This document shows, one piece after another, positions 47,905 to 64,000 of a stretch of DNA of 64,000 nucleotides. The position numbers and the translations under genes are program-made. This DNA comes from Cyclobacteriaceae bacterium. GTDB lineage: Bacteria; Bacteroidota; Bacteroidia; Cytophagales; Cyclobacteriaceae. Where the stretch lies: positions 1 through 64,000 of the forward strand of contig JAHCHY010000012.1 of NCBI GenBank assembly GCA_026129485.1. The letters run 5' to 3'. The notes beneath the pieces were generated by a model, which was not told the DNA's origin, made no database searches, and worked only from the letters and a program-made list of their open reading frames with translations. Positions within the stretch are counted from its first letter, which is position 1. Each line of letters starts with the position of its first letter.

Positions 47905-50139
47905 TTACGCTTTAAGTACATTGGTCAGATCAGTGCGGTTCAGGCTTAAAGCCTGGAATCCGCAAAGCGCTACGATTACTCCCAAACAATACGCTAACGG
48001 GTAAACAGGATCAGTCCATTGAAACGGAGTGGTATAAACAAAGTTTCGCAGAAACTCTTTCAGAAAAATAAAAGTAACAGGAGTGAAAACCAGGATGGCA
48101 ATACCCATTTGTATGACAAACTCGCGTGCCAGTAAATGTGTAATACGTGAGGTGCCGGCTCCAAAAAGCTTGTGAATAGCAATCTGCTTTAGCTTGTCGC
48201 GCACTAAGCTTATACTTAAGCCATAGATAGCCAGGCAGGAAAGAATACCGGAAATGATCGCAAGAATTTTGGATAAAGCATTTAACCGATCCTGGTAGTG
48301 CAGCCACTCTTCAAAACGATTGTCCACAAAAGAAACCTGTGCCGGGGATTTATTATCAAATGCATGTGCCAGCACGTATAGTGTAGTGCGAATGTTAACC
48401 TCCAGTATGCGCACACATAAAAACTGATACTTAGTGTGCGATGCCACAAGATATTTCATCGGCTTTTGCGGCCGGTTAAACTTCTCGTCCATGTTTTCAA
48501 CCACACCGATTATATCGGCACTGCCGGAAAGACCAGCTGCCTGGTTGATAACGGCCATAGGCGATTCATCATTCGGTTGAAACCACCTGCCGCTATCAAC
48601 TTCTAAATTGAAAAACTCCCGGTAGCCACGGTCAACGGTCATGAAATAGAAATCTGAATTTAATTCTTTACTCTGTACCCGGTGGGGTAGCTGCGAAACG
48701 GCAATCACATCATCAATGTTCGGGTTGTTTTTCTTCCAGCCGGCCCGCAGCTCGTAAAGCCCTTCGTTTGTAAGACCTGCCGGGTACGGCATATACACCA
48801 CCTGGTAGTGGTTGCGTCCGGGTTCTTTTATCAAAGAATAGTTTACCTGCCGGCCGATTACCAATGACGCCACGATCAGGAAAATGCTTATACCTAATTG
48901 AAGAAAAGTGATTATCCTCTTGAACCGGGGAAACGTAATGGTATCTGTGCTTAGTAAACGTGTGGGTGTAGCCTTGGCGAATTTGAGTGTCATTGCCAGG
49001 GGAGCCACACCGCCCACAAGCAACAGGGCCAGGGCAATGTACACAAAAGCAAGGTTACCGCTTAGCAGCAAATTGATGGTATTGATCTGAAGGATAGGCT
49101 CGGTAAACGAGTTAAGGCCGACTAAAATTAAAATACCCAGCAGAAACGCAAGGCCGACCAGGGCAAAAGACTCCGAGGCAAACATGATCATCAATGACCA
49201 TTGGCTTGTTCCGGAAAGCTTTTTAATGGCCAGCTCTTTTGAACGATGCGGCAGCGTAAGCGTGGTAAGGTTAACAAAGCTGGTAATAGCCAGGAACAGG
49301 ATCAGCGCAGTAATGCAGAGTAAAATCAAAATGCTGTAAGCATCACCATGCCGGGCATCTTCACCGGCTACACGCGGGCCAAAGTAAATTTCCGGCAAAG
49401 GCTGGAATGAATAAGCATATAGCGGATCGTTGAGAGATTTATTTAACCGGCTTTCATAACCGGTTATCAGGCCCTGATTGATTTTACCGTAAACCCCACA
49501 GGTAGTTGTATTGAATTTTAATGCCTGAACAGACTTGTTACTGAAAGAAACAAAAAGATGAAAATTTTCATGTGTATTGGCAGGAAAATTCTGAAAGACA
49601 GCAGCGATTGTATAGGCTACTGTGTCATTCAATGCATAAAGCTTAATAGCCCGGCCTGCGCTTGCTGTTGTGCCGAAAAGCTCAAGCGAAAGCTGTTCAG
49701 AGATAAGGGCACCGTTTGCAAATCCATCAACTGAGCCATTGACGGATTTAAAATCAAAAACCGATAGCAGGGAAGTATCGGCAGCGTGCACCTTTCGTTC
49801 ATGGTAAAGCTTTGCCCCAACGGCTATGCTTAACCCGTTCATGATCTTCACGCGCGCCAGCACGATCGAGTCTTTTGGCCAGGAAGAAAATTGCCGGTAA
49901 ACAGCAGCGGGTATTTTAACGGATAGCCGGTTACCGCTGAATGCTTCGCTGTTGTTTCGTTCAAGCAAACGGAAAACAGAACGGGCATCAGGTTGAGCCC
50001 TATCATATCCGAATTCATGTAATGCGAATAACGAGATAAGTGTAGCGCTGGCTAATGCTACGGCCAGGGTAATGATCTTTAAGAAATAAACCTCGCGGTT
50101 TTTGAAAGCAATACGCAGAAAAAGCAAGAAGTGTAGCAT
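47905..50139 (-). CDS. Divergent MacB/FtsX-type permease without prefix, last gene of the array
   Basis: The 744-residue permease has the duplicated MacB/FtsX layout with helices near 20-40, 275-420 and 620-735. Its motifs are degenerate: KELAIKKLSGTSQWS and KQIAIHKLFGAGTSR in place of KEVGIRKVxG. It begins MLHFLLFLRIAFKNREVYFL with no prefix domain. Periplasmic domains are shorter than in the five upstream genes. It starts 9 nt after the stop of the 50149-52809 gene, so it is co-transcribed. It could be a partner subunit or a decaying copy. Confidence 0.85.
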   Translation of the reverse strand: MLHFLLFLRIAFKNREVYFLKIITLAVALASATLISLFALHEFGYDRAQPDARSVFRLLERNNSEAFSGNRLSVKIPAAVYRQFSSWPKDSIVLARVKIMNGLSIAVGAKLYHERKVHAADTSLLSVFDFKSVNGSVDGFANGALISEQLSLELFGTTASAGRAIKLYALNDTVAYTIAAVFQNFPANTHENFHLFVSFSNKSVQALKFNTTTCGVYGKINQGLITGYESRLNKSLNDPLYAYSFQPLPEIYFGPRVAGEDARHGDAYSILILLCITALILFLAITSFVNLTTLTLPHRSKELAIKKLSGTSQWSLMIMFASESFALVGLAFLLGILILVGLNSFTEPILQINTINLLLSGNLAFVYIALALLLVGGVAPLAMTLKFAKATPTRLLSTDTITFPRFKRIITFLQLGISIFLIVASLVIGRQVNYSLIKEPGRNHYQVVYMPYPAGLTNEGLYELRAGWKKNNPNIDDVIAVSQLPHRVQSKELNSDFYFMTVDRGYREFFNLEVDSGRWFQPNDESPMAVINQAAGLSGSADIIGVVENMDEKFNRPQKPMKYLVASHTKYQFLCVRILEVNIRTTLYVLAHAFDNKSPAQVSFVDNRFEEWLHYQDRLNALSKILAIISGILSCLAIYGLSISLVRDKLKQIAIHKLFGAGTSRITHLLAREFVIQMGIAILVFTPVTFIFLKEFLRNFVYTTPFQWTDPVYPLAYCLGVIVALCGFQALSLNRTDLTNVLKA

Positions 50140-50148
50140 AGGCAGGTT

Positions 50149-52809
50149 TTACTCGCTTCTCAAATTCTTCACAGGGTTTACCAACGCTGCGCGTACGGAC
50201 TGGTAGCTGATGGTGAGCAAGGCAATCACTACCGACAATACTCCGGTCAGCAGGAACACATCCCAACTGATTTCGGTTTTGTACGCATAGTTTTGCAGCC
50301 ATTTCGTCATCACATACCACGCAAGCGGTGCGGCAATCACAAAAGCAATGAGAACCAATTTCACAAAGTTGAAGGTAAGCAATCCAAAAATATTTTTTAA
50401 TGATGCACCCAACACTAACCGAATGCTGATCTCTTTACTGCGCTGTTCCGCCATAAACGCAGAAAGTGCAAACAGGCCGAGGCATGCCACTACAATAGCG
50501 AGCACCGAGAAGCTGGTGAAGATGCGGCCTGTGCGTTCCACATCTTTATACATCTGTGCATAGCTTTCATCCAGAAAAGCAAAACGCACGGGCTGGTTGG
50601 GAACAAACTCTTTCCATGTTTTGCTGATCGACTGAACGGCTTCCTGCATGTCGGCACTTTTTATTTTTACAGAGATAATGTCGGGGCTCGTTCCCAATCG
50701 CATCATCAACGGCTTAATGTTTTCCCGCATCGTTTCAAAATGAAAATCTTCCACTACGCCAATGATGGTATATTTATCCCCGTTATCGATAATCTTTCCA
50801 ATGGGATCAGTAAGTCCAAGCTCTTTTATCATGGCCTGGTTTACGATCGCTGCTGATAAGTCTGACGATAAGCGGGCATTAAAATCCCTGCCTTCTGTGA
50901 TCGTCATTCCCATGGTATGGATATAGTCTTCATCCACTACCCAGTTTTGCCCGCCCACACCACGGTCTGCTCCTCTTTTTCCTTCGTTGTGAAAGGTATT
51001 TCCGTTTCGTTTGGTGCCGCGTACCGGAAGGTAATCGCTGACGGAAACGCTTTTTACCTGTGGCAATTGCAGCAGCTCTTCCTTGAAAGTTTGAAGAGTA
51101 CCGCCCAATGTACTGGCTCCCTGTATCAACAACACCTGGTCTTTTTCAAAGCCGATTTTTTTATTCAGGATAAAATCCATTTGCCGGTAAGTAACAAATG
51201 TGCTCACGATAAGCACAATGGAGATCGTGAACTGAAAAACCACCAACGTACTTTGTGTGTAAGAGCTTTTGCTTCCCAATGCCAGCCTTCCCTTGATCAC
51301 TTCAATGGGTTTGAATTTGGACAAATAGAAAGAAGGATAAAGCCCTGCGAAAAAGCCAATGAGTATTGCTGCGCTGGTGAAAATGGGAATTAACCTCCAG
51401 TCGCTCCATGGAATGGTCAGTGATTTGCCTGCAAGATCATTGAACAAGGGAAGTAATGCTAAAGCCAGCATAATACCCAACACAAATGAAAGAATGCTGA
51501 GCAAGATCGATTCAGTTAAAAACTGGCTGACGAGGTTGCTGCGAAATGAGCCCACCACTTTGCGCATGCCCACTTCTTTGGCGCGGTTTGCCGAACGTGC
51601 CGTAGAAAGATTTATAAAGTTGATGCCGGCAATGATCAGAATAAAAACAGCAATACCGCCAAACAACCAGACGGTGTTCCAATCGCCATGGCTCCTTCCA
51701 TCCCTGATGTCGCCATCCAGATGAATATGGCTAACGGGTTGAAATTCCAGGTGAGCGTTTGCATTCTCTAAAAGCTCTTTTGCATTGGGCACGCCATCTT
51801 CTATCATCCTGGGCAACAGGTATTTTTCAATCGTACTCTTCGATGCTTTGGCTCCTAATTCTTTTGCATCAGCTCCTTCTTTCAGCAACAGGTAAGTCTG
51901 ATAATTGCTGCAACACCAGCTCGTTTGCTCGCCCGGCCAAAACTCGCGGTCTTTCATGGTGATCAAAAAATCAAATTGAAAATGTGTGTTTGAAGGAAAA
52001 TCTTCCATCACGCCACCTACCGTGAGCGGGTTTTTTTCATCGTTACTTAAAATCACCAGCTTGCCTATCGGGTTTTCGTTAGGGAAATATTTATCGGCTT
52101 TACGTTTGGAAAGTACAATGGTATTGGGAGCATCCAGCGCTTTGGAAGCAAGGCCATACACCATCGGTATGTCTAAAATTTCCAGCAGTTGAGGATCAAC
52201 ATACGTGAAGCCGTCATCATACGAATTATCGGGCTTATCGGCCGGCCTGAATTCTTTGCTGCCTGCACCAAAAAGTTCTGCGCTGTTGAGGCGGCCGGCC
52301 GCTTCTATTTCAGGATAATCATCCAGCAGTGATTGGGCAAACGGGGCCTGAAAATAAACCTCGCGAAGGGTTTGTCCTTTATCGGTGAACACACCCAGCA
52401 CCCTGTAGATACGATTGCCCTTGGGATAATTCTGATCGTAACTCAATTCATCGTTGATAAATAATGCAATGAGCAAACAGGCTGCAATGCCCAACGCAAA
52501 GCCCCCGATCTTGATGAATGAATATATCTTTTGCTTTAAAAGATTTCTCCACCCGATGGTAAAATAACTTTTGAACATACCGTAATTGTTTAACTGTTTA
52601 TATCCTTCTATCGGTTTAATAATACCCGGCTTGCACAACAGCAGCACATCCACTACAAAAAATAAATCTGCCTTTCGTTTGCCGGATTTGCTTAATCGCC
52701 TCTCATACACTTCCATCAGATCGCCTTCGATGTAGTCTTGCAGCTTCGGGTGGCAGTACCACCGGAAGAAGCGGAGCGGGAGTTGGGGTGGCGTTGAAGT
52801 TTCTTTCAT
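50149..52809 (-). CDS. Prefix-domain MacB/FtsX-type permease 5 of the array
   Basis: The 886-residue protein starts with the prefix PPQLPLRFFRWYCHPKLQD, YIEGDLMEVYERRLSKSGKRK and a short hydrophobic FFVVDVLLLCKPGII (about 1-65). TM1 follows near 98-120, then a MacB-like periplasmic domain, helices near 375-520, and TM5 near 525. A second periplasmic domain and three helices near 770-880 follow. The two coupling motifs are AKEVGMRKVVGSFRSN and KEISIRLVLGASLKN, and it ends NPVKNLRSE. In the linker it reads KPIEGYKQLNNYGMFKSYFTIGWRN. No ATPase is encoded beside it. Substrate is unknown; envelope stress or peptide export is the usual role of relatives. Confidence 0.88.
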   Translation of the reverse strand: MKETSTPPQLPLRFFRWYCHPKLQDYIEGDLMEVYERRLSKSGKRKADLFFVVDVLLLCKPGIIKPIEGYKQLNNYGMFKSYFTIGWRNLLKQKIYSFIKIGGFALGIAACLLIALFINDELSYDQNYPKGNRIYRVLGVFTDKGQTLREVYFQAPFAQSLLDDYPEIEAAGRLNSAELFGAGSKEFRPADKPDNSYDDGFTYVDPQLLEILDIPMVYGLASKALDAPNTIVLSKRKADKYFPNENPIGKLVILSNDEKNPLTVGGVMEDFPSNTHFQFDFLITMKDREFWPGEQTSWCCSNYQTYLLLKEGADAKELGAKASKSTIEKYLLPRMIEDGVPNAKELLENANAHLEFQPVSHIHLDGDIRDGRSHGDWNTVWLFGGIAVFILIIAGINFINLSTARSANRAKEVGMRKVVGSFRSNLVSQFLTESILLSILSFVLGIMLALALLPLFNDLAGKSLTIPWSDWRLIPIFTSAAILIGFFAGLYPSFYLSKFKPIEVIKGRLALGSKSSYTQSTLVVFQFTISIVLIVSTFVTYRQMDFILNKKIGFEKDQVLLIQGASTLGGTLQTFKEELLQLPQVKSVSVSDYLPVRGTKRNGNTFHNEGKRGADRGVGGQNWVVDEDYIHTMGMTITEGRDFNARLSSDLSAAIVNQAMIKELGLTDPIGKIIDNGDKYTIIGVVEDFHFETMRENIKPLMMRLGTSPDIISVKIKSADMQEAVQSISKTWKEFVPNQPVRFAFLDESYAQMYKDVERTGRIFTSFSVLAIVVACLGLFALSAFMAEQRSKEISIRLVLGASLKNIFGLLTFNFVKLVLIAFVIAAPLAWYVMTKWLQNYAYKTEISWDVFLLTGVLSVVIALLTISYQSVRAALVNPVKNLRSE

Positions 52810-52827
52810 AGATCCATTTTATAATCT

Positions 52828-52874
52828 GTTACCGGGTTCCAGTTACTGGTTACCGGCAACTGGAAACCGGTAAC
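52828..52874. repeat. Intergenic GTTACC/GGTAAC repeat 1 of the array
   Basis: Alternating units of GTTACCGG, CCAGTTACTGG and CCGGTAAC form a quasi-palindrome in the gap between two array genes. Similar repeats lie in four other gaps of the run. Confidence 0.7.
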
Positions 52875-52909
52875 TCATTCACTTCTCAAACTATTTTAAT
52901 AGCCGTAGC

Positions 52910-55540
52910 TCATTCTGAGCGTAGGCTATCCACCGGGTTGCTCATAGCTGCTTTCATTGCTTGGTAGCTCATGGTTAACAGTGCAATGGACATGACCAGC
53001 GCTCCGCCCGAGAAAAACATCCACCAGCTCATGTTGATCCGGTAGGCAAAGCCTTGCAGCCATTCATTCGTAAAATAGTACCCTATGGGGATTGCAACTG
53101 CAAAAGCTATAAAGATGAGTACGATGAATTCCTTTGAAAGCATCATGATAATTTTTGACACGGATGCGCCAAGCACTTTCCGTATGCCTATTTCTTTTGT
53201 GCGCTGCCCGGCCGACAGCATAACAAGGCCGAACAACCCCATGCAGGAGATGACAATAAAAAGCCCGGACGCAAAAGTGATGATCTGCTTCCACCTCGCT
53301 TCTGTTTCATAATTCCTTGCATTCAGGTCGTCCATGAAATGGTACGTGTACGGAAAATACGGGACAAGTTTGGCGTAAGTATGGTGCAGCAACGTAAGTG
53401 TGCCGGGAATATTATCCGGGGTTATCTTTACCCATATTTGCCCGTAATTGAAAGCAGGCTCCATTGTAAAAAGTTGCGGTGTGATTTTTTCTTTCAACGA
53501 AGTGAAGTGGTAATCTTTTATAACGCCAACAACCGTAACAGCAGGTTTGGTATCATCAAGATAGTTTACCGTTTTACCAACGGCTGTGTTCAGACTCCAC
53601 CCGGCTTCTTTTACAAAACGTTCATTGACGATAACGGAATACAATGAATCTGATGGAAAATCGGGAGAAAAATTTCTTCCGGCCAAAACCGGTATCCCGA
53701 AAACCGGAAGAAAGGATTCATTGACTTTGCTCTTTTCGATAATTATGTTTTTTCCATCCACCCTCACGCTTGTTGTACTCCTTCCGCCATTTTTTCCGGC
53801 CACATTTACAATACCCGGTTTTCCGTTCAATTCGTTTTTAAATAATTCGGGAAGTCGATTACTTGACCTGCTGACTGGTATATCTATCCTGACAAGGTTT
53901 TTGCTATCGTAACCAAGATCGGCATGTGAAAGAAAATTCATTTGTGAATTAACGGCAATGGTGCCGATGATCAGGAAAGCAGCGAGCGCAAACTGTAATA
54001 CAATCAAACCTTTTGTGAGGTAATTTTTCCCCGTCAGCTTTTCCCTGCTGTATAATGCTTTCACCGGTTGAAAGGCAGACAGCACAAGGGATGGATAAAA
54101 GCCGGTGAAGAACGCTGTAACCAGCAATAGCAAAAAGAACCCTGCATACAGATAGCCGTCCGATAAATAAGAAAGGCTTAGTTTTTTATTAGCCAATTCA
54201 TTGAAAAAAGGAAGGGTGAGCAGGGTTAATGAAACAGAGATGATAAAAGCAACTGCGGAAACAAGGAACGATTCGGTGAGAAATTGCCTTATGATTTGTT
54301 TACGTGTGCTGCCAATTACCTTTCTTATTCCTATTTCCTTGTTTCGCTTTAAGGATTGGGCGATGGAAAGATTAATAAAATTGATACAGGCGATAACCAG
54401 GATAAACACGGCAATGCAGGTGAGGATGTAAGAATAAACCGGTTTGCTTCCGTCTGTCATTCCGTTACCCGGGCCTGCTTGTGTGCTCAGGTGTATGTCG
54501 GTTAACGGCTGCAATGCTAACGTTATGCTTACATCAACACCAAGTTTCTCTTTTGCCTTTGTAATTTCATTGCTGATATTCTTGTCAAATATTGCCTGCA
54601 TCTTGCTGACAACCGTGTTGCTGTTCGCCTGGGGAGAAAGCAAAAGAAATGTGTTCATGCTTCCACCGAACCATTCTTTGTTATCGTTATAGCGTTCATA
54701 ACTTTCAAAGGGCAGAAGCACCCCGGTTTTCAGTGTTGAATTCTGCGGAAAATTTTCTGACACTGCGCTGATGGAAAAATCTTCAAAACCATCCCCCATC
54801 TTTATTTGTAAAGATTTACCAATTACGTCAACCATTCCAAAATATTTTAATGCCATATCCTTGGAAATAACTACGGAGTGCAGTTCTTTCAATGCCGTAC
54901 TTTCATTACCTGCCAGCAGGGGAAATGTAAACACCGAAAAAAAGATATTATCAACAAATAGCGTATGCTCAGTAAACACTTCATCATCTTTTTTGATGGT
55001 TACCGGAAATCCATTGATGCGTACATATTGCTGCACTTCGGGCAACTGTCTTGCAAAAGTTTCACCCACCACGGTATTGGTGGTGCCAAGAGTTTTTGGC
55101 GGCTTGTCGCCAATATGAAATGTTTGTATGATCCGGTACAGCCGGGTTTTGTTTTCGTGAAACTGATCGTAGCTCATTTCATCTTTGGCATAAAGGAAAA
55201 TGAGCATACAGGCGCTTAACCCAATGCTCAATCCGAAGATTTTGATGAAGGCAAGTGTTTTATTGCCTGCCAGGTTTCTCCACCCGATTTTGAAATAACT
55301 TTTATACATACCGTATGTGTTTAGTTTTTTATATCCTTCTGTTGGTTTAATGATACCCGGCCTGCACAACAACAGCACATCTACTATAAAAAGTAAATCT
55401 GCCTTTCGTTTGCCGGATGTCTTTAGTCTTCTTTCATACACTTCCATCAAGTCGCCTTCTATATAATCTCTCAGCTTCGGATGGCAGTACCAGCGGAAGA
55501 AGCGGGTTGCGAGTTTGGGTGGCGTTGAAGCTTCTTTCAT
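52910..55540 (-). CDS. Prefix-domain MacB/FtsX-type permease 4 of the array
   Basis: The 876-residue protein has the shared prefix (MKEASTPPKLATRFFRWYCH to LLLCRPGII, about 1-64) and the linker KPTEGYKKLNTYGMYKSYFKIGWRN. TM1 lies near 97-118 and helices lie near 375-510 and 760-865. Both cores keep the coupling motif: KEIGIRKVIGSTRKQ and KEIGIRKVLGASVSK. It ends NPVDSLRSE. Downstream of the stop lies a relic AGTTTGAGAAGTGAATGA that spells Ser-Leu-Arg-Ser-Glu-stop in another frame, evidence of a past recombination at the 3' end. Confidence 0.88.
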   Translation of the reverse strand: MKEASTPPKLATRFFRWYCHPKLRDYIEGDLMEVYERRLKTSGKRKADLLFIVDVLLLCRPGIIKPTEGYKKLNTYGMYKSYFKIGWRNLAGNKTLAFIKIFGLSIGLSACMLIFLYAKDEMSYDQFHENKTRLYRIIQTFHIGDKPPKTLGTTNTVVGETFARQLPEVQQYVRINGFPVTIKKDDEVFTEHTLFVDNIFFSVFTFPLLAGNESTALKELHSVVISKDMALKYFGMVDVIGKSLQIKMGDGFEDFSISAVSENFPQNSTLKTGVLLPFESYERYNDNKEWFGGSMNTFLLLSPQANSNTVVSKMQAIFDKNISNEITKAKEKLGVDVSITLALQPLTDIHLSTQAGPGNGMTDGSKPVYSYILTCIAVFILVIACINFINLSIAQSLKRNKEIGIRKVIGSTRKQIIRQFLTESFLVSAVAFIISVSLTLLTLPFFNELANKKLSLSYLSDGYLYAGFFLLLLVTAFFTGFYPSLVLSAFQPVKALYSREKLTGKNYLTKGLIVLQFALAAFLIIGTIAVNSQMNFLSHADLGYDSKNLVRIDIPVSRSSNRLPELFKNELNGKPGIVNVAGKNGGRSTTSVRVDGKNIIIEKSKVNESFLPVFGIPVLAGRNFSPDFPSDSLYSVIVNERFVKEAGWSLNTAVGKTVNYLDDTKPAVTVVGVIKDYHFTSLKEKITPQLFTMEPAFNYGQIWVKITPDNIPGTLTLLHHTYAKLVPYFPYTYHFMDDLNARNYETEARWKQIITFASGLFIVISCMGLFGLVMLSAGQRTKEIGIRKVLGASVSKIIMMLSKEFIVLIFIAFAVAIPIGYYFTNEWLQGFAYRINMSWWMFFSGGALVMSIALLTMSYQAMKAAMSNPVDSLRSE

Positions 55541-55558
55541 AGATTCATTTTATAATCT

Positions 55559-55592
55559 GTTACCAGTTTCCAGTTACTGGTTACCGGTAACT
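55559..55592. repeat. Intergenic GTTACC/GGTAAC repeat 2 of the array
   Basis: GTTACC-AGTTTCC-AGTTACTGG-TTACCGGTAAC lies between two array genes, with the same units as repeats 1 and 4. Confidence 0.7.
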
Positions 55593-55626
55593 CATTCACT
55601 TCTCAAACTATTTTAATAGCCGTAGC

Positions 55627-58245
55627 TCATTCTGAGCGTAGGCTATCCACCGGGTTGCTCATAGCTGCTTTAATGGCCTGGTAGCTTACGGTTATGATCG
55701 TAAGTATTAAGGCGCCAGCAACCGACAGCAGGATAACAAGCCATGAAATCTCAACATGGTATTGGTAGTTCGTCAGCCATTGCGACATGAGATAATAGGC
55801 AAGGGGTGCCGCTACCAAACCCGAAAGCAATATCAGCACGACAAAACCCGAAGAGAGCAAGCTCCAGAGCTGTGTGAGCGATGCTCCCAATACTTTGCGG
55901 ATGGCAATTTCTTTGGTTCGCTGTTCAGCTACAAACGAAGCCAGACCGATCAGCCCCAGGCAACTGATGAATGTGGCAAGCCCCGAAAATATGTAGGCCA
56001 GCTTGCCAATGGTTTCTTCCGTTGAAAATTTTCTTCCGTACTCCGTATCCACAAAAACATAATCGAAAGGGATACCGGGTGCAAATGTTTTAATTACCTG
56101 TTCAATTGCTGCGAGCGATTCAGTTGCGCTACGACCCGGGTTCAATTTCATGTTGATCCAGTTTACATGCCGGTATCGGTTATCGAGGAGGTAAAGATTG
56201 TGGCGAACCGGCCGGTAAGGCGATTCCATAATCATATCTTTTGCCACACCAATTACATGGTATTTTCTATCGCCACTGGTTAACTCCATGCCAACAGGGT
56301 TATCCACATTCATAAATTTTACCGCAGCTTCGTTCAGGATAATGGCCATTGAATCAGACGGAAAATCGTGCGAGAAGTCGCGGCCTTCCAGTATCTGCCA
56401 GCCCAGCGCTTTGCCAAACTCATGGTTCACATCAATAATACCAAAATCAGAAGATTGTAGTTCCGGGTCTTTGCCGGGCCAGCTATAACCGCCACTGTTG
56501 TTCCAGATTTGTGTAAGCGGAGTGGATGATGTACCCACCTCCACTACGGCACCGGTATTTTTCAACGCCAACCGCAATGCTTCATACCTGCCCATAAAGT
56601 CGTGCGACTTCACCTGGAATGTAACTAACCCATCATGATCGTAACCGATAGGACGGTTCTTGGAGTATTGAATCTGGTCGTACACCACCAATGTGCCGAT
56701 TACCAGCGTAATGGAAACCGTAAACTGAATTACCACCAACACTTTGCGCGGAAACGATGACTGTCCATCGGCTTTTAGCGAACCTTTTAAAACCTTCATT
56801 GGCTTGAACGCTGAAAGCATGAATGCCGGGTAAAAACCTGCCGCCAGGCTGGTGATGAGCATAAACGCAACGCTCACCATCCAGAACACAGGATTAGTCC
56901 ATTCGACTACTATTTGTTTATTCGCCAACTGGTTGAACCAAGGCATAGCGGTAACCACTATGGTCAGTGTAAGCATAAACGCAAGCATCACCATTAAAAA
57001 TGTTTCACTCAGAAACTGATTGATCAATTGGCTGCGCACAGAGCCCACCGTCATACGGATGCCCACTTCTTTGGCGCGTTTTTCGGACCGTGCAGTGGTG
57101 AGATTCATAAAATTGATGCAGGCCAGCAACAGCACAAACACACCAATGATGCCGAACATCATAACCATTTCAATTTGCCCTCCTGTTTTTACTCCATTCT
57201 CCCACCTTGAATAAAGCCGCCAGTCAGGCGTAGGGTGCAGAAAAATTTCGGGTTTAAAGTAATCGTCTTTCGTGTGAAGCACGCGCACATTCTTTATCTT
57301 TTCTGATGTAAGGTTCATATCGGTTTGCGGGGCAAGCTGCGCAAAGAGCTGAAACGAATTATTGTCCCATTGGTGCTCGGCATTGCGAACCCATGCTTCC
57401 GATGCGGCATAGAGCTCCCAGCTTGAAAGAAATTTCAGGTTTTGAAAAGATGAATGGTACGGGATGTCCTCATATACACCGGTAACTTTTACATCGTACC
57501 GGTTGTCAATGCGGATGGTCTGGTTCAGCGGATCGGCTGTTCCGAACAACGCCCTGGCAGAAGATTCTGAAAGTAAAATGGAAGACGGGTCTTTCAGACC
57601 GTTGCGTACTCCAGCGATCATTCTTAATGAAATCATTTCAGGGAAATCGGCCTGAACAAAATTTCCGGTTTGTGAAATACTCCGCTCGCCAATGCTCAGG
57701 ATATGATCGGCCGGCCAGGTGGCCATCGCGAGATGTTCAAAATCATTTGCATACGTATTGCGCATGGCGCTTTCCAGCGGGCGCGGTATGGCATGGCTGG
57801 TCATCACGTTCCCGTCAACCGTTTGATGTTGCATAACCTGCGCCAACCTGTCGTAGTTATCGTGGTATTGGTTGAAGGTCAGCTCATCCCACACCAGCAA
57901 CCCGATCAGCATAGCGATGGCCATGCCCACGGCAAGTCCACCGATGTTGATAATAGAATAACCCCTGTTCCTGAGCAGGGTTCTCCACCCGATCTTGAAA
58001 TAGCTTTTATACATACCGTAGGTGTTTAAATTTTTATACCCTTCTGTTGGTTTAATAATGCCTGGTCTGCAAAGCAGCAGTACATCTACCATAAAAAGTA
58101 AATCTGCTTTCCGTTTGCCGGATTTGTTAAATCGCCTCTCATACACTTCCATCAAATCGCCTTCGATATAGTCTTGCAGCTTCGGATGGCAGTACCAGCG
58201 GAAGAAGCGGAGGGCGGGTTTGGGTGGCGTTGAAGCTTCTTTCAT
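55627..58245 (-). CDS. Prefix-domain MacB/FtsX-type permease 3 of the array
   Basis: The 872-residue protein has the shared prefix (KEASTPPKPALRFFRWYCH ... YERRFNKSGKRK ... LLLCRPGII) and linker KPTEGYKNLNTYGMYKSYFKIGWR. TM1 (about 97-117, INIGGLAVGMAIAMLIGLLVW) precedes a MacB-like domain. Other helices lie near 375-520 and 760-865. The first coupling motif is altered, AKEVGIRMTVGSVRSQ; the second is normal, KEIAIRKVLGASLTQ. It ends NPVDSLRSE. Its 3' end and downstream gap are identical over 89 bp to those of permease 4. Confidence 0.88.
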   Translation of the reverse strand: MKEASTPPKPALRFFRWYCHPKLQDYIEGDLMEVYERRFNKSGKRKADLLFMVDVLLLCRPGIIKPTEGYKNLNTYGMYKSYFKIGWRTLLRNRGYSIINIGGLAVGMAIAMLIGLLVWDELTFNQYHDNYDRLAQVMQHQTVDGNVMTSHAIPRPLESAMRNTYANDFEHLAMATWPADHILSIGERSISQTGNFVQADFPEMISLRMIAGVRNGLKDPSSILLSESSARALFGTADPLNQTIRIDNRYDVKVTGVYEDIPYHSSFQNLKFLSSWELYAASEAWVRNAEHQWDNNSFQLFAQLAPQTDMNLTSEKIKNVRVLHTKDDYFKPEIFLHPTPDWRLYSRWENGVKTGGQIEMVMMFGIIGVFVLLLACINFMNLTTARSEKRAKEVGIRMTVGSVRSQLINQFLSETFLMVMLAFMLTLTIVVTAMPWFNQLANKQIVVEWTNPVFWMVSVAFMLITSLAAGFYPAFMLSAFKPMKVLKGSLKADGQSSFPRKVLVVIQFTVSITLVIGTLVVYDQIQYSKNRPIGYDHDGLVTFQVKSHDFMGRYEALRLALKNTGAVVEVGTSSTPLTQIWNNSGGYSWPGKDPELQSSDFGIIDVNHEFGKALGWQILEGRDFSHDFPSDSMAIILNEAAVKFMNVDNPVGMELTSGDRKYHVIGVAKDMIMESPYRPVRHNLYLLDNRYRHVNWINMKLNPGRSATESLAAIEQVIKTFAPGIPFDYVFVDTEYGRKFSTEETIGKLAYIFSGLATFISCLGLIGLASFVAEQRTKEIAIRKVLGASLTQLWSLLSSGFVVLILLSGLVAAPLAYYLMSQWLTNYQYHVEISWLVILLSVAGALILTIITVSYQAIKAAMSNPVDSLRSE

Positions 58246-58262
58246 AGATTCATTTTCTAATC

Positions 58263-58288
58263 GTTACTGGTTACCGGCAACTGGAAAC
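58263..58288. repeat. Intergenic GTTACC/GGTAAC repeat 3 of the array (short)
   Basis: GTTACTGGTTACCGGCAACTGGAAAC is a shortened form of the array repeat in the 43-bp gap between permeases 2 and 3. Confidence 0.6.
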
Positions 58289-60910
58289 TTATTCACTCCG
58301 CAATCCCTTAACCGGGTTATCAACAGCAGCCTTCATACCGTGTATGCCTATCGTGATAACAGCAATTAAAAGCGTGGCTAAACCTGCGAGGATAAAAATC
58401 CAAACCCCTAAATCGATCCGATAGACAAATCCGTCAAGCCATTGCTTCATTAAGAAATAAGCGGGAACAACAGCAATTATAATAGCCAGCAGCACTAACC
58501 TTACAAAGTTGCCCGAGAGAATGCTGAGTAAATTCCACAATGAAGCGCCCAGCACCTTGCGAATGCTGATCTCTTTCACCCGTTGCTGAATCATGTAGGA
58601 CGACAATCCGAATAACCCCAAACAAGCCAGCACGATAGTGATGCCCGCAAACAGGTTCATCACCTGGCCTAATTGTACTTCCGTACGGTACATGCGCTCA
58701 TACTCCTGGTCGAGAAAGCTATACTCAAACGGACGGTTGGGTAAAAACTGCTTCCACTTTGTTTCTATATGTGCAAGTGTGCCAACCATATCATCGCCTT
58801 TCACTTTTATCAGCATGCGATTGCCCCATGCAGCCGAGAACAACACAAGCGGTTCAATGCTGTTGCGCAATGACTGAAAGTTGAAATCTTTAACCACACC
58901 CACAATAATACCCTGGCTATTCAGGTGCATTTTCTGGCCGATCGCATCTTCGTTTGATTTAAACCCAAGCTTTTTAACCGCGCTTTCGTTCAGGATATAA
59001 TGAAATTCTTTATCCTCCCATTTTTCTGCCAAAGTTGCCTGTATGTGCTGTTCAGAAAAATCGGTTCCGGCAATAAGCTGTAATCCGGCCGTGCGCACAT
59101 ATTCGGCATCTACCGGTGTAGCTTTAGTGCCAATAACTTCGTTCTCGGCCATAGAAGGCAACCGCATGCTGTAACCACCCACTATGCTTACCGGGCTGCT
59201 TTCGCAACGCGCAATATTTGTAATATGTGTGTTTGTTTTTAACTCATGCTTTAAGGTTGAGATCAGGTTGTATTCGGCACTCCAGCCTATTGGTAATGAA
59301 ATAACGTGATCACGATCGTAACCTAATTTTTGGGTTTGAATGTAATGAAGCTGACCCTGGATAACCACCGTAGCAATAATCAGGAACACCGAAATGGCAA
59401 ACTGAAAAACGGTTAACGATTGTTGCAACACTTTGGCCGATTGTGTGTTCTTGAAAACACCTTTTAATACCCGTGCGGGTTGTAACCGCGAGAGTACCAA
59501 GGCCGGGTAACCACCTGCTATCAGGCTTACGAAAAGCGTAGCGACTATTGTCCACAATATAAATGAAGGCGTAAACAGACCGGCTAACTGAAGGCTTTTG
59601 CCAATAAGAATATTAAAGGGAGGCAGGAGCAAGCCAGCCAATGCAATGCTTACCATTATCGAAAGGCTGCACAACACAAACGACTCGCCAATGAATTGCC
59701 AGAACAGTTGACCGCGCATGGCGCCCGATACTTTACGAATGCCTACTTCCCGTGCCCGTTCAATGGATTTGGCTGTGCTCAGGTTAATGTAGGTGAAACA
59801 TACGATAATGATAATCAGCAAGGCCACACCGCCCAAAATGTATAAGTACTTGATGCTCGTGTTGGCTACAAAATCAGAGTACGGAGAATACAGGTGTACA
59901 TCTTCAAACGGTTCAAGATAGATATGAATAGAAGTGCCTGTGCCTTTCATTTCGTTTTCCATAAACGGGTGCAGCTTTTCCTGTAACGGGGCAAAGGCTT
60001 GCGCATCGGTTAACAGCAGGTACGTGGTGTAATTAGCATTGAAATAGGTTTTTTCCTGGTTTCGTCTCAGCGAAGAGAATGATGCCAGGAAATCAAATTC
60101 CATTTGGGAGTTGGCGGGGTAATCGCGCATAACCCCGGTTACCTCGTAAGGTTTTGCATCATTGCCGATCAGCAAGGTTTTACCCAGAACATTTTCGTTG
60201 CCGAAGTACCGGTTGGCTGTTGTTTCGGTAAGCACAACTTTATCGGGGCCGTTCAATGCCGTAGCCGGATTGCCTTGCAACATCTCATAGTAGAATGTGT
60301 CAAAGAAAGAAGAATCGGCAAACATAAAATTGCGTTCCATTACCGGCTCGTTGTTGAGCACCACAATCATATCGGCATCCGTCATGCGGATACCTTTCTC
60401 AACTTCGGGGAACGTGCGCGAAAAAACAGGCGCTACTTTGGTGCTGGTAAATGTACCGCGGGCCTTGTCCTCGCTGCCTTCAAAGCTATATTCCATCACC
60501 ACGCGGGCAATTCGTTCTTTGTTGGGTTGAAACTGATCGAAGCTCGCTTCATAGCGGATGAATAGCGCAATCAGCAGACAGGAGGTAAGGCCGGTGGTAA
60601 GCCCGAATACATTAATAACCGTGGATACTTTGTTTTTCCACAGGTTACGGATGGCGATTTTGAAATTACTTTTGAGCATAACGGTATGATAAAATTTTGG
60701 TGATTGATTTCCTGACCTGATAATACCCGGCCTGCATAGCAGCAGCACATCAATGATGAAGCGCAAATCTGCCTTTCGTTTACCGGATGTTTTTACTCTT
60801 CGTTCATACACCTCCATCAGGTCGCCCTCGATATAGTCTTGCAGCTTCGGATGGCAGTACCATCGGAAGAAGCGGAGGACGGGTTTGGGTGGCGTTGAAG
60901 TTTCTTTCAT
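58289..60910 (-). CDS. Prefix-domain MacB/FtsX-type permease 2 of the array
   Basis: The 873-residue protein keeps the prefix (KETSTPPKPVLRFFRWYCH to LLLCRPGII) but then differs: RSGNQSPKFYHTVMLKSNFKIAIRNLWKN instead of the usual EGYKNLNTYGMYKSYF linker. TM1 lies near 97-120, helices lie near 370-510 and 770-865. Coupling motifs are AREVGIRKVSGAMRGQ and KEISIRKVLGASLWN, and it ends NPVKGLRSE. The change at the prefix boundary suggests recombination between the prefix and a different permease body. Confidence 0.88.
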   Translation of the reverse strand: MKETSTPPKPVLRFFRWYCHPKLQDYIEGDLMEVYERRVKTSGKRKADLRFIIDVLLLCRPGIIRSGNQSPKFYHTVMLKSNFKIAIRNLWKNKVSTVINVFGLTTGLTSCLLIALFIRYEASFDQFQPNKERIARVVMEYSFEGSEDKARGTFTSTKVAPVFSRTFPEVEKGIRMTDADMIVVLNNEPVMERNFMFADSSFFDTFYYEMLQGNPATALNGPDKVVLTETTANRYFGNENVLGKTLLIGNDAKPYEVTGVMRDYPANSQMEFDFLASFSSLRRNQEKTYFNANYTTYLLLTDAQAFAPLQEKLHPFMENEMKGTGTSIHIYLEPFEDVHLYSPYSDFVANTSIKYLYILGGVALLIIIIVCFTYINLSTAKSIERAREVGIRKVSGAMRGQLFWQFIGESFVLCSLSIMVSIALAGLLLPPFNILIGKSLQLAGLFTPSFILWTIVATLFVSLIAGGYPALVLSRLQPARVLKGVFKNTQSAKVLQQSLTVFQFAISVFLIIATVVIQGQLHYIQTQKLGYDRDHVISLPIGWSAEYNLISTLKHELKTNTHITNIARCESSPVSIVGGYSMRLPSMAENEVIGTKATPVDAEYVRTAGLQLIAGTDFSEQHIQATLAEKWEDKEFHYILNESAVKKLGFKSNEDAIGQKMHLNSQGIIVGVVKDFNFQSLRNSIEPLVLFSAAWGNRMLIKVKGDDMVGTLAHIETKWKQFLPNRPFEYSFLDQEYERMYRTEVQLGQVMNLFAGITIVLACLGLFGLSSYMIQQRVKEISIRKVLGASLWNLLSILSGNFVRLVLLAIIIAVVPAYFLMKQWLDGFVYRIDLGVWIFILAGLATLLIAVITIGIHGMKAAVDNPVKGLRSE

Positions 60911-60927
60911 AGATTCATTTTCTGATC

Positions 60928-60974
60928 GTTACCGGTTTCCAGTTACTGGTTACCGGTAACAGGAAACTGGTAAC
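60928..60974. repeat. Intergenic GTTACC/GGTAAC repeat 4 of the array
   Basis: The repeat (GTTACCGGTTTCC, AGTTACTGG, TTACCGGTAACAGG, AAACTGGTAACT) lies in the 64-bp gap between permeases 1 and 2. It is nearly the same as repeat 5. Confidence 0.7.
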
Positions 60975-63593
60975 TCACTCCGTTCTCAAACTCTCCACCG
61001 GATTCGCCAAAGCCGCTCTCACAGACCGATAGCCTACTGTGAGCAAAACAACTCCAAGTATAATGGCCAGTTCCAGCATGAATATCCAGATGCCCATATC
61101 AACCTTGTACGCATAGAGCGAGAGCCAACGCGACATCAGCATCCAGCCAACAGGCGCTGCAATTAAAAACGCGATAATCACTAAGCGCGAGAATTCCTTT
61201 CCGAAAATCCAGAGTATCTGAGAAACATCTCCTCCCAGTACTTTTCGTATGCCTATCTCTTTTGTTTTTTGAATGGCCATAAACGATACCAGCCCGTATA
61301 AGCCCATGCAGCCGATCACGAGGGCAATACATGAAAAGACCTGTGTCAGCGTCATCATGGCTTGTTCTATCCGGTAAAATGCAGCAATCTGGTCATCGAG
61401 GAAATCATACTGGTACATCAGCTCCGGGTACATGCTGCTCCATGCTTTTTCAAGAGCGGCCAATGTGTTCGCTGCATCCTTCATATTTATTTTGATGGCG
61501 AACGCATTATAGGTTTCCTTTGCAGTGGTTATGGCTATCGGCTCAATGTCAGACCTAAGCGACTGGTCGTGAAAATCTTTTACCACACCGACAACCGGCC
61601 CTATCCAGGAATCGCCATTCACCGCAACCGGCCTGCCGAGCATATCCTCGGGAGAGGAAAGCCCAAGCTTTGCCGCCATCTTTTCATTTACGAGAAATTC
61701 CCGTGCTGTATCAGACGGTGTTAAATTCCTTCCGGCAACGAGACCGATACCGAACGTGGAAAGATAATTTTCGTCAGCGTTTCTTACGTTTACCGAAAAA
61801 GTTTCTGTTTCGCTGCGGTTATCGTACCTGAATGATGTACTCCAATGCTCGTTGGAAGCGGGCGCTGCAAAGCAAAGGGAAACATTCTCAACCTGCGGTA
61901 TAGCCAAAAACTGTTCCTTTAGTGTATTTGCCTTCGTGTCATTTGACCCGGTCGGGATCATCACCACGGCCTCATGGTTAAATCCCATATCGGTATTGCG
62001 GAAATATTTCATCTGGTAGAACACTACAATCAGGCCGATCAGCAAAACCTGCGAGATGGTGAATTGTGTAATGATAAGCCCACGCCTGATGTTAAAGCTT
62101 CCGCCCTGCTGCCCCTGAAACTTTCCTTTCAACGCCTGCACGGGCCTGAACCCCGACAGGACAATGCCGGGGTATGCGCCCGACAGGAACGTTACTGTGA
62201 ACATCAGCGCGAGCAAAAACCAAAGCGCGCTTATGTCGGAGAATAAATTGAGCGTTATTCGTATATTGAAAAATTCGTTCACGTAAGGCAGAACAGCATA
62301 AGAAACAAAAAATGCCAGCAACGTTGCTAATAAAACAATCACACCCGTTTCGGTTGTGAACTGCCAGAACAATTGCGTGCGTACGCTTCCCAGCACTTTG
62401 CGAATACCCACTTCTTTCGCCCGCGTAACAGCCTGCGCAGTAGCGAGGTTGATAAAGTTCAGGCAGGCCGTGAATACCAGCAGGAAGCCGACCATCGCCA
62501 GCACCCAGAGAATGGTTTTATCCATTCTTCCACCGTACTTTGCATTAAAATGAACATCATCAAGCGGCTGAAGCTTGTAGTGATGAACATTCTTGCTTTC
62601 CGCGCGGTACTTCTTTACATAAGCGGGTAAGACAAGCTCAACTTCTGCGGGAGTAACCCCGGGCTGAAGCCTCGCAAAGGTCTGAATGTCGGTGGTGATG
62701 CCGCCCCAGCCCCAATCATCATCGCCAGCATACCAGTGGTTGTACTGTTTTATGGTGCTGTACGAAAAATAAATTTCCGAACGCAGGTCAGTGTTGTCCG
62801 GGATGTCTTTCAGCACACCGGTTATGGTAAAATCAATGCGGTTATCAAACCGGAAGGTTTTGCCGAGGGGCGATTCATCGTCAAAATATTTTTTTGCGAT
62901 CCGTTCGCTCACGAGAGCCGTATTGGGTTCGGTGAGCATGTTATCACGCTTTCCCGAAACAAGCGGGAAATTGAAAATGTCGAAAAACTCAGGCTCGGCA
63001 AACGCTACTTCTTCCTTAAACTTTCTGATGTCAGCGTCTTCCTCCACTGCAATGAGTTGATCCGTTAGCGTGCACAGGCGAGCTGTTTTTTCGCCAAACG
63101 TATAATCATCGCGAAACGCTTTGCCGAAAGACGGAGGCACACTTCCACTAAAGCTCACCTGGTCGCGATGCGCTTCCGTAACAAAGCGGTAGATACGGTC
63201 GGAATTATTGTGAAAATTATCAATGTCTAAGTGATAGCTTATCAGGGAGAAAATCAATAACGCACAGGAAATGCCCAGGGCAAGACCTGACACATTGATA
63301 GCAGCATGTGTTTTTTTAGCGATGATGTTACGCCACGCAGTTTTTAAATAGCTTTTATACATACCGTAAGTGTTTAAGTTTTTATAGCCTTCTGTTGGTT
63401 TAATGATACCGGGTCTGCACAACAGCAGCACATCTATGATAAAAAACAGGTCTGCTTTCCGTTTGCCGGATTTGTTTAACCTTCTTTCATACACTTCCAT
63501 CAAATCCCCTTCTATATAATCTCTCAGCCTCGGATGGCAGTACCATCGGAAGAAGCGGAGAGCGGGTTTTGGTGGCGTTGAAGTTTCTTTCAT
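60975..63593 (-). CDS. Prefix-domain MacB/FtsX-type permease 1 of the array
   Basis: This is the first permease after the PadR gene, with 872 residues. The prefix spans about 1-65 (MKETSTPPKPALRFFRWYCH, RDYIEGDLMEVYERRLNKSG, ADLFFIIDVLLLCRPGII). Then comes KPTEGYKNLNTYGMYKSYLKTAWRN and TM1 near 99-120. Helices at about 365-525 and 760-865 surround a second periplasmic unit. Coupling motifs are AKEVGIRKVLGSVRTQ and KEIGIRKVLGGDVSQI, and it ends NPVESLRTE. It is 78 bp from the PadR stop and probably its co-transcribed target. Confidence 0.88.
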   Translation of the reverse strand: MKETSTPPKPALRFFRWYCHPRLRDYIEGDLMEVYERRLNKSGKRKADLFFIIDVLLLCRPGIIKPTEGYKNLNTYGMYKSYLKTAWRNIIAKKTHAAINVSGLALGISCALLIFSLISYHLDIDNFHNNSDRIYRFVTEAHRDQVSFSGSVPPSFGKAFRDDYTFGEKTARLCTLTDQLIAVEEDADIRKFKEEVAFAEPEFFDIFNFPLVSGKRDNMLTEPNTALVSERIAKKYFDDESPLGKTFRFDNRIDFTITGVLKDIPDNTDLRSEIYFSYSTIKQYNHWYAGDDDWGWGGITTDIQTFARLQPGVTPAEVELVLPAYVKKYRAESKNVHHYKLQPLDDVHFNAKYGGRMDKTILWVLAMVGFLLVFTACLNFINLATAQAVTRAKEVGIRKVLGSVRTQLFWQFTTETGVIVLLATLLAFFVSYAVLPYVNEFFNIRITLNLFSDISALWFLLALMFTVTFLSGAYPGIVLSGFRPVQALKGKFQGQQGGSFNIRRGLIITQFTISQVLLIGLIVVFYQMKYFRNTDMGFNHEAVVMIPTGSNDTKANTLKEQFLAIPQVENVSLCFAAPASNEHWSTSFRYDNRSETETFSVNVRNADENYLSTFGIGLVAGRNLTPSDTAREFLVNEKMAAKLGLSSPEDMLGRPVAVNGDSWIGPVVGVVKDFHDQSLRSDIEPIAITTAKETYNAFAIKINMKDAANTLAALEKAWSSMYPELMYQYDFLDDQIAAFYRIEQAMMTLTQVFSCIALVIGCMGLYGLVSFMAIQKTKEIGIRKVLGGDVSQILWIFGKEFSRLVIIAFLIAAPVGWMLMSRWLSLYAYKVDMGIWIFMLELAIILGVVLLTVGYRSVRAALANPVESLRTE

Positions 63594-63610
63594 AGATTCA
63601 TCTACTAATC

Positions 63611-63658
63611 GTTACCGGTTTCCAGTTACTGGTTACCGGTAACAGGCAACTGGTAACT
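63611..63658. repeat. Intergenic GTTACC/GGTAAC repeat 5 of the array
   Basis: The repeat lies between the PadR stop and permease 1 start, with the same succession of units as repeat 4 and only a few base changes. Confidence 0.7.
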
Positions 63659-63671
63659 GTGCTGCCTATTC

Positions 63672-64000
63672 TCAAATGAATTTAGCTTCCAACACCGTCT
63701 TCGGGATAGCCTTCCACAACTGCTCGCGGGTTTCTTTTGCGTAAAGCATCGCCTTCTTTCCCAGCGCGGTTATTTCAAAATAGCGCCTCGGTCTTCCGGC
63801 CCGGTCTTCAGTGCTTTCGCCTGAATACGATTTTAAATAGCCTTTATCTTCGAGGCGTAGCAAAGCCGTGTGCAGCGCGCCCATGCTTACCGTGCGTACT
63901 AAGCGTGATTCAATTTCATCTTTGATGGCTACACTGTAGGCTTCATTGTTAAGAATGCCTACCGTGAGGATTACGATTTCTTCAAACTCACCTAATTGAT
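63672..64000 (-). CDS. PadR-family transcriptional regulator (5'-truncated by window edge)
   Basis: Reading from the right edge, the visible 108 residues are LGEFEEIVILTVGILNNEAYS, VAIKDEIESRLVRTVSMGAL, HTALLRLEDKGYLKS, then GRPRRYFEITALGKKAMLYAKE. This is the winged-helix domain of PadR-type regulators, with the GALHTxLxRLExKGYLxS signature. They bind ligands through the dimer interface and repress adjacent membrane transporters. A shorter frame beginning at the internal ATG 63884 is an artefact of that codon. The start lies beyond 64000. It probably controls the permease run downstream. Confidence 0.92.
   Translation of the reverse strand, partial: QLGEFEEIVILTVGILNNEAYSVAIKDEIESRLVRTVSMGALHTALLRLEDKGYLKSYSGESTEDRAGRPRRYFEITALGKKAMLYAKETREQLWKAIPKTVLEAKFI

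Follow-up and report, generated by a model that had tools for sequence, protein, structure and literature searches.

The window analysed here comprises 64,000 nucleotides of a Cyclobacteriaceae bacterium genome of 4.08 Mb in 40 contigs (GenBank assembly GCA_026129485.1, contig JAHCHY010000012.1) and corresponds to bases 1-64000 of contig 4. It ends in an operon headed by a gene for a PadR-family regulator, which is followed by genes for large duplicated MacB/FtsX permeases. Five of these proteins begin with a segment that matched the NCBIfam family perm_prefix_2 (NF038404) in 5/5 cases, with 55.4-65.6 bits for a cut-off of 35, and that is called the prefix or tag below. This segment is probably an operon-specific device that couples the permeases to their PadR protein.

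The operon at the end of the window

The operon consists of the following features, detected as open reading frames (ORFs) and by family models:

63672..64000 (true start at contig position 64010), minus strand: PadR-family regulator, heading the operon (PF03551, 46.1 bits, cut-off 27)
60975..63593, minus strand: prefixed duplicated MacB/FtsX permease 1, 872 residues (ORF, Pfam, NCBIfam; AlphaFold model)
63354..63593, minus strand: perm_prefix_2 tag of permease 1, codons 1-80, three predicted helices (NF038404, 57.4 bits)
58289..60910, minus strand: prefixed permease 2, 873 residues (ORF, Pfam, NCBIfam)
60671..60910, minus strand: perm_prefix_2 tag of permease 2 (NF038404)
55627..58245, minus strand: prefixed permease 3, 872 residues (ORF, Pfam, NCBIfam)
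58006..58245, minus strand: perm_prefix_2 tag of permease 3 (NF038404)
52910..55540, minus strand: prefixed permease 4, 876 residues (ORF, Pfam, NCBIfam)
55301..55540, minus strand: perm_prefix_2 tag of permease 4 (NF038404)
50149..52809, minus strand: prefixed permease 5, 886 residues (ORF, Pfam, NCBIfam)
52570..52809, minus strand: perm_prefix_2 tag of permease 5 (NF038404)
47905..50139, minus strand: terminal prefixless permease, 744 residues, an uninterrupted divergent ORF 9 nt after permease 5 (ORF, Pfam)

The PadR frame is open at the end of the window (63672-63998), and its start codon lies ten bases further on. Against TIGR03433 this protein scored 38.2 bits, under the cut-off of 101.8. 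All six permeases contain two MacB_PCD and two FtsX stretches apiece (Pfam); no perm_prefix_2 match was obtained with NCBIfam for the sixth, of 744 residues. A sequence-only reading of the window had described a PadR gene, five permeases of 872-886 residues and a sixth one on a single strand, which the ORFs and the Pfam matches bear out. The almost invariant N-terminal segment that it noticed in the five was also found, with an identity of 82-90% over the 10 pairs compared to 31-36% for the rest of the protein (the body). It had regarded such permeases as annotated with no defined function, and this holds for the function, but the prefix itself already carried a name in NCBIfam. The six ORFs of the proposed six-permease run are all present, but the series does not end at 64000: upstream of the PadR gene and on the same strand it continues to ~97.5 kb, with seven permeases that lack the prefix and another prefix run headed by a PadR gene. 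The seven lie at ~64.8-82.7 kb of contig 4 (L001:2840-19981 and L002:296-2716) with one 147-residue gene interspersed; next to them are a prefix permease that is broken and the remnant of a prefix (L002:3521-3613).

The AlphaFold model of full-length permease 1 (mean predicted local distance difference test score, pLDDT, of 83) consists of a three-helix N-terminal domain, with predicted helices at residues 9-18, 21-42 and 44-58, followed by the duplicated MacB-like permease. In a fold search with this model the best match was YbbAP (9ge6), with an E-value of 1.2e-19 and a TM-score of 0.46-0.49 (0.46 on the query). MacB (2.4e-13), LolCDE (5.1e-10) and BceAB (7tcg; 6.7e-9) were also found; the TM-scores on the query were moderate, 0.21-0.46 over YbbAP, MacB and LolCDE. 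The prefixed permease therefore has the permease fold of type VII ATP-binding cassette (ABC) systems.

Linkage of the prefix to PadR genes

The genome containing the window has 35 perm_prefix_2 matches (34 above the cut-off), 17 PadR matches (16 above) and 81 frames for MacB-type permeases, of which 71 exceed 600 residues. Its prefixes fall into 15 runs, and a PadR gene on the same strand was found directly upstream of 14 of them, the coordinates of the matches being 251-407 nt apart. The fifteenth run starts at a terminus of contig 34. A run of the same prefix type is cut off where contig 2 stops, so the assembly may have divided a single operon between the two contigs. Among permease frames above 600 residues, a PadR match was present within 2 kb upstream of 13 of 31 prefixed ones versus 1 of 40 others, a grouping in which C34:12169, whose first half is without a match, is misassigned, the true totals being 32 and 39. 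The positional link between prefix and PadR that had been proposed from the window was thus found throughout the genome.

The only case among the other permeases, L015, carries a prefix that resembles perm_prefix_1 with an E-value of 0.013, below the cut-off. In this locus (L015:2864-5897) the PadR gene precedes an 896-residue permease with a weakly perm_prefix_1-like N-terminal segment, which may represent a further class of PadR-prefix pair in this genome. All 16 PadR genes above the cut-off precede a prefix- or HAAS-like N-terminal segment, two of them by weak matches alone, and L019 encodes an HTH_34 protein under the PadR cut-off. At L018:1084-3887 a PadR gene is followed by that of a PspC-LiaF-Toastrack protein, which matched HAAS weakly (E-value 0.076); this is the type of dyad already published. 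L015, L018 and L019 hold the three PadR matches that lack perm_prefix_2. A 369-residue protein, apparently secreted, is encoded directly after two prefixed permeases on the same strand (L003:7909-9018); its start is presumably carboxypeptidase-regulatory-like.

The tag was also observed on one protein of another kind. Locus L014 has its own PadR gene, followed by a 341-residue protein with about three hydrophobic stretches and without a MacB domain, whose tag scored 33.5 bits on the protein and 37.2 bits in the genome search. It is the sole non-permease body seen with the tag. Short frames bearing the prefix were examined as further candidates and rejected: of the five inner ones in the 80 PadR-search loci described below, L175 has a shortened permease, the prefix frames of L185, L154 and L171 continue in another frame, and L186 has its prefix in a 45-residue frame preceding the permease frame. 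L194, L195, L196 and L200 have permeases in pieces, with presumably transposase-like frames in L194 and L196. Relatives of this body, 27-31% identical, were found at three loci in two other genomes, two of them aligning over the C-terminal half only, and neither tag nor PadR was present within ~1.5 kb of these.

The distribution of perm_prefix_2 among genomes is patchy: samples from the phylum (118 genomes) and from the order (148), both including the present genome, contained 7 and 26 carriers, respectively. At 36 of 45 prefix loci from other genomes, the 1.5 kb retrieved upstream contained a PadR gene in the same orientation; five of the nine remaining loci occupy later positions in runs that begin with a PadR gene (L053, L054, L066, L067 and L069; two by coordinates only). 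The converse was examined with a PadR-only search of named genome contigs that was blind to the prefix, from which the best 80 of at least 556 confirmed relatives were taken, 51-91% identical to the query; since these loci were chosen by PadR similarity, PadR proteins of this type are over-represented among them. In them, perm_prefix_2 was located within 400 nt downstream of 87 of 88 PadR domains. For 85 of these 87 domains the next ORF was scored as a permease; for the remaining two another ORF had been picked, although the prefix frames have 931 and 934 residues. The 88th case is a divergent PadR in L149 (36 bits) that precedes a permease with another N-terminal segment. Absence of the linkage elsewhere had been named as grounds for giving up a conserved system, and the linkage was present in both searches. 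The closest PadR relatives among the matches listed, 91 and 89% identical to one PadR of the present genome, belong to Cyclobacteriaceae metagenome-assembled genomes.

Operon-specific tags and their likely partner

Prefix and body identities were compared in eight multi-permease operons of the present genome, excluding one broken member and one contig-end fragment. Within operons (33 pairs) the prefixes were 83% identical and the bodies 36%, versus 38% and 34% between operons (292 pairs). The excess of within-operon identity was 0.43-0.52 over residues 11-70, 0.14 at residues 81-90 and 0.04 at 91-100, and did not surpass 0.10 in any block past residue 100. It ends at the first membrane helix, 94-122, a helix taken from the model and assigned to the membrane by us. 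The same pattern was obtained in other genomes, where prefixes and bodies were 76% and 40% identical within operons (19 pairs, 15 operons), compared to 43% and 35% between them (368 of 400 drawn pairs), and the prefix exceeded the body by more than 0.2 in 15 of the 19 within-operon pairs.

The tags also vary together with the PadR proteins. A Mantel analysis of 13 operons of the present genome gave a PadR-prefix correlation of 0.47 (p 0.001) and a PadR-body correlation of 0.00 (p 0.49). For 125 operons from many genomes (135 distinct ones minus 10 with short bodies) the values were 0.77 and 0.60, with partial correlations of 0.63 versus 0.20, all inflated by shared descent. The tags of later genes in a run match the PadR too.

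A common partner would not need operon-specific tags, and PadR is the one operon-specific other component; PadR is therefore the suggested partner of the tag. The prefix had been proposed as an adaptor to a shared partner such as an ATPase or the PadR protein. Linkage and co-variation favour PadR, and an adaptor role towards it is the best-supported one on these comparisons, whereas a single ATPase shared by all is disfavoured by prefixes that are 38% identical between and 83% within operons.

That the prefixes are near-identical inside each operon could also be expected if they drove assembly among the permeases of one operon and had no dealings with PadR. Such a role appears highly improbable, since operons with a single prefix are common (6 of the 15 runs of the present genome; 61 of the best 80 PadR-search loci, with one prefix in the stretch examined) and still have their PadR, and since the co-variation with PadR would be left unexplained.

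Neutral concerted evolution was considered as well, in which the 5' end of the gene would be a recombination tract for capturing new permease bodies, with no specific partner. Synonymous differences within operons were 0.53 in the tag and 0.78 in the body, and because this divergence is lower in the tag, the tag is younger than the bodies, as such a tract would be. Broken copies are also present in these runs, some of them with presumably transposase-like frames. Nevertheless, replacement differences in the tag (pN) were 0.10 versus 0.53 at synonymous sites (pS), which indicates a protein under selection; the tract stops at the domain border; and neither the linkage to 87 of the 88 PadR domains nor the PadR-prefix co-variation is explained, so that neutrality by itself is a quite improbable account. 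A function of the prefix region at the DNA level was likewise judged unlikely, as synonymous sites differ by 0.53 within operons.

According to another alternative, these proteins are ordinary type VII ABC transporters sharing a stand-alone MacB/LolD-type ATPase in trans, with PadR as a plain autorepressor that responds to a soluble ligand and the prefix as a structural part. Neither the window operon nor the next 35 kb of the contig (L001, L002) revealed an ABC ATPase gene, in agreement with the sequence-only reading of the run. An ordinary operon with its ATPase gene just past 64000, the check named there, was rejected after the contig was read to 99.5 kb. Using phmmer with a MacB-type ATPase, no match was obtained in L001-L014. 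Three were found among the best 80 PadR-search loci, none within a PadR-prefix operon: the match in L117 lies beyond a convergent gene, that in L192 is divergent and upstream, and that in L172, at the border of the locus, is a fragment. The co-encoding of ATPase and permease that characterizes type VII ABC systems was thus not observed in the PadR-prefix operons of these loci. A candidate from a motif screen, upstream of PadR at L010:11497-13884, was discarded because the MacB-type ATPase query had no match there; it presumably encodes UvrA. A fused ABC exporter is located ~5 kb past the last permease of the contig 34 run, with genes on the opposite strand intervening. An ATPase, an 858-residue permease and a divergent esterase, which we take to be GDSL-like, are encoded together at L017:3639-7598, resembling a YbbAP-TesA unit.

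Several observations do speak for an ATPase in trans. Two motifs (around RAKEVGxRK and KEIGIRKVLGAS), which we take from the MacB literature to be the coupling motifs, show a similar degree of conservation in 32 prefixed and 31 other permeases of the present genome, the latter including one with another prefix and two encoded beside an ATPase; in the 744-residue permease of the window they are degenerate. A stand-alone MacB/LolD-type ATPase (C23:66465-67175) has relatives at E-values of 1e-60 or lower in 56 of the 59 genomes examined from the order, some of these genomes having only matches of ~50-56% identity that may be other ATPases, and no permease was found within 1.5 kb of it in 30 loci (its own included; four cut by contig ends). 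The gene at L217:5463-6179 encodes a stand-alone ATPase of this type, well conserved in the order, and is a candidate shared engine. The nearest solved folds, YbbAP, MacB and LolCDE, point in the same direction. On the other hand, a shared engine predicts one prefix for all operons, yet the prefixes are operon-specific. The motifs are kept in permeases without the prefix, so that the prefix is not required by whatever uses them, and the prefix is also found on the non-permease beside the PadR of L014. The stand-alone ATPase could serve orphan permeases in trans or could simply be LolD. This explanation is considered unlikely as a whole; service by an ATPase in trans is possible in itself and would not contradict a coupling of tag and PadR.

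A putative PadR-coupling unit and its known relatives

Inverted repeats above the 95th percentile of the controls (160, drawn from PadR-search loci) were detected upstream of 6 of 14 PadR genes of the present genome (p 0.004) and 16 of 87 others (p 0.006), and the repeats of the present genome also exceeded those of its own shuffled sequences (p 0.0006). The repeat of L006, counted among the six, could alternatively be the terminator of the preceding gene. The repeat of the window operon lies at contig 64011-64053, outside the window. In addition, the element TACATTTA was present in 46 of 102 PadR upstream regions versus 2 of 251 control ones, mostly 18 to 45 nt before the PadR start in the best 80 loci. 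The PadR site ATGT-N8-ACAT occurred in none of 139 PadR upstream regions. The repeats and the element TACATTTA would fit autoregulation by PadR.

Taken together, these comparisons make it fairly likely that the operon forms a one-component regulatory unit linked to the membrane, with the prefix as a tag that would couple an envelope sensor to the PadR of its own operon. We infer that the tag would bind PadR physically, that PadR would be a repressor, and that a signal would switch it in one direction or the other. In the proposed mechanism, PadR would repress its own operon from the inverted repeats at its promoter, and the cytoplasmic N-terminal three-helix tag of each prefixed permease would recognise its particular PadR. 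The MacB-like periplasmic parts and the FtsX-type membrane helices would form the sensor; a change in the periplasm would move the tag, which would then capture or release PadR and alter transcription. Several permeases with unrelated periplasmic sequences and one tag would in this way all report to one PadR.

Some results weigh against this proposal. The prefixed permeases retain the coupling motifs, as a working transporter would. Recombination probably contributes to the uniformity of the tags, judging from their synonymous sites, and a neighbouring tag and PadR can co-vary through joint inheritance alone. Mutual information at the level of residues was 0.299 for PadR-prefix versus 0.283 for PadR-body, with no clear interface (effective number of sequences ~90). 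Modelled in isolation, the prefix gave three helices at low confidence (pLDDT 61), and a search of PDB folds with this model produced no match below an E-value of 2.6. Finally, lone prefixed permeases without a PadR gene in ~15 kb upstream were found at equivalent loci of two genomes of one genus (L197:14963-17650 and L198:764-3451), and no PadR gene was present within the stretch fetched for the prefix loci L087 and L089.

The closest published parallel is the HAAS-PadR dyad (Ravi et al., 2024; PMC11237479), for which the portions of that source available present a model in which the HAAS domain works with PadR. In both, a cytoplasmic domain of three helices forms the N-terminus of a multi-membrane protein and a stand-alone PadR is encoded next to it, and we read the tag as working, by analogy, like that dyad. 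The same portions list a fusion to FtsX-like and MacB_PCD domains (ACO32024.1), so the principle is already in print. In contrast to the dyad as described there, operons of the window type have several permeases, one operon-specific tag and one PadR. The prefix was rejected as a member of the HAAS family, as the tests by sequence and by profile were null. HAAS models matched none of 51 perm_prefix_2 segments at an E-value of 10, and hhalign of the prefix against 13 HAAS segments (12 of 14 found, plus L018) gave a probability of 2.8%, a weak comparison, since the same HAAS segments were also null against five prefix_1-like ones. The GxP motif of the kinked third HAAS helix is absent from the prefix consensus, where RPxxI is the majority sequence after helix 44-58.

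With the acidobacterial duplicated orphan permeases (ADOP, TIGR03434), the window proteins share duplicated FtsX and MacB_PCD domains, many paralogues and an operon without an ATPase; we take duplicated MacB_PCD and FtsX domains without an adjacent ATPase to define that group, and the window proteins have them. They differ in their TIGR03434 scores, 249-352 bits for the five prefixed permeases and 73.5 for the sixth, all under the cut-off of 622.3, and in having a prefix of type 2 in a genome of Bacteroidota type. A further prefixless ADOP-like permease of 811 residues is encoded at 21037-23472 of the window. YbbAP and BceAB-BceS, type VII ABC systems, have the permease fold in common with the present proteins, but here the operon is without an ATPase, and in place of a kinase or an esterase a DNA-binding repressor is predicted as the partner. 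BceAB illustrates, in the part of its literature available, that such permeases can join in signalling, there with a kinase. In Listeria, loss of the PadR protein LltR raised the expression of lltR and of the next gene, for a DUF1700 membrane protein, more than 100-fold, according to the portions available of Hauf et al. (2019; PMC6624303); the membrane protein differs from the present ones, and the words interact and two-hybrid were not found in the main text. Neither perm_prefix_2 as a PadR partner nor operon-specific tags were found in the open-licence literature, as far as the sources searched were available.

A broader proposal, that perm_prefix_2 represents a second, HAAS-independent class of PadR-binding tags and that this genome runs about fourteen insulated channels of PadR, tag and operator, several with a repertoire of permease sensors per PadR, is put forward tentatively, as a possibility somewhat short of an even chance. 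Duplicated orphan permeases would in that case be receptors and not transporters.

Duplicated orphan permeases form large unexplained sets, including the 71 frames above 600 residues of the present genome; according to the literature available in part, two Dyadobacter species have 28 and 33 copies by RAST annotation, and one acidobacterium has 102. If the coupling of tag and PadR is true, the family perm_prefix_2 would gain a concrete role, the binding of a cognate PadR, which predicts the pairing of PadR proteins with permeases and the mutual insulation of the pairs. A membrane-tethered repressor system, parallel to two-component signalling, would then serve many orphan permeases.

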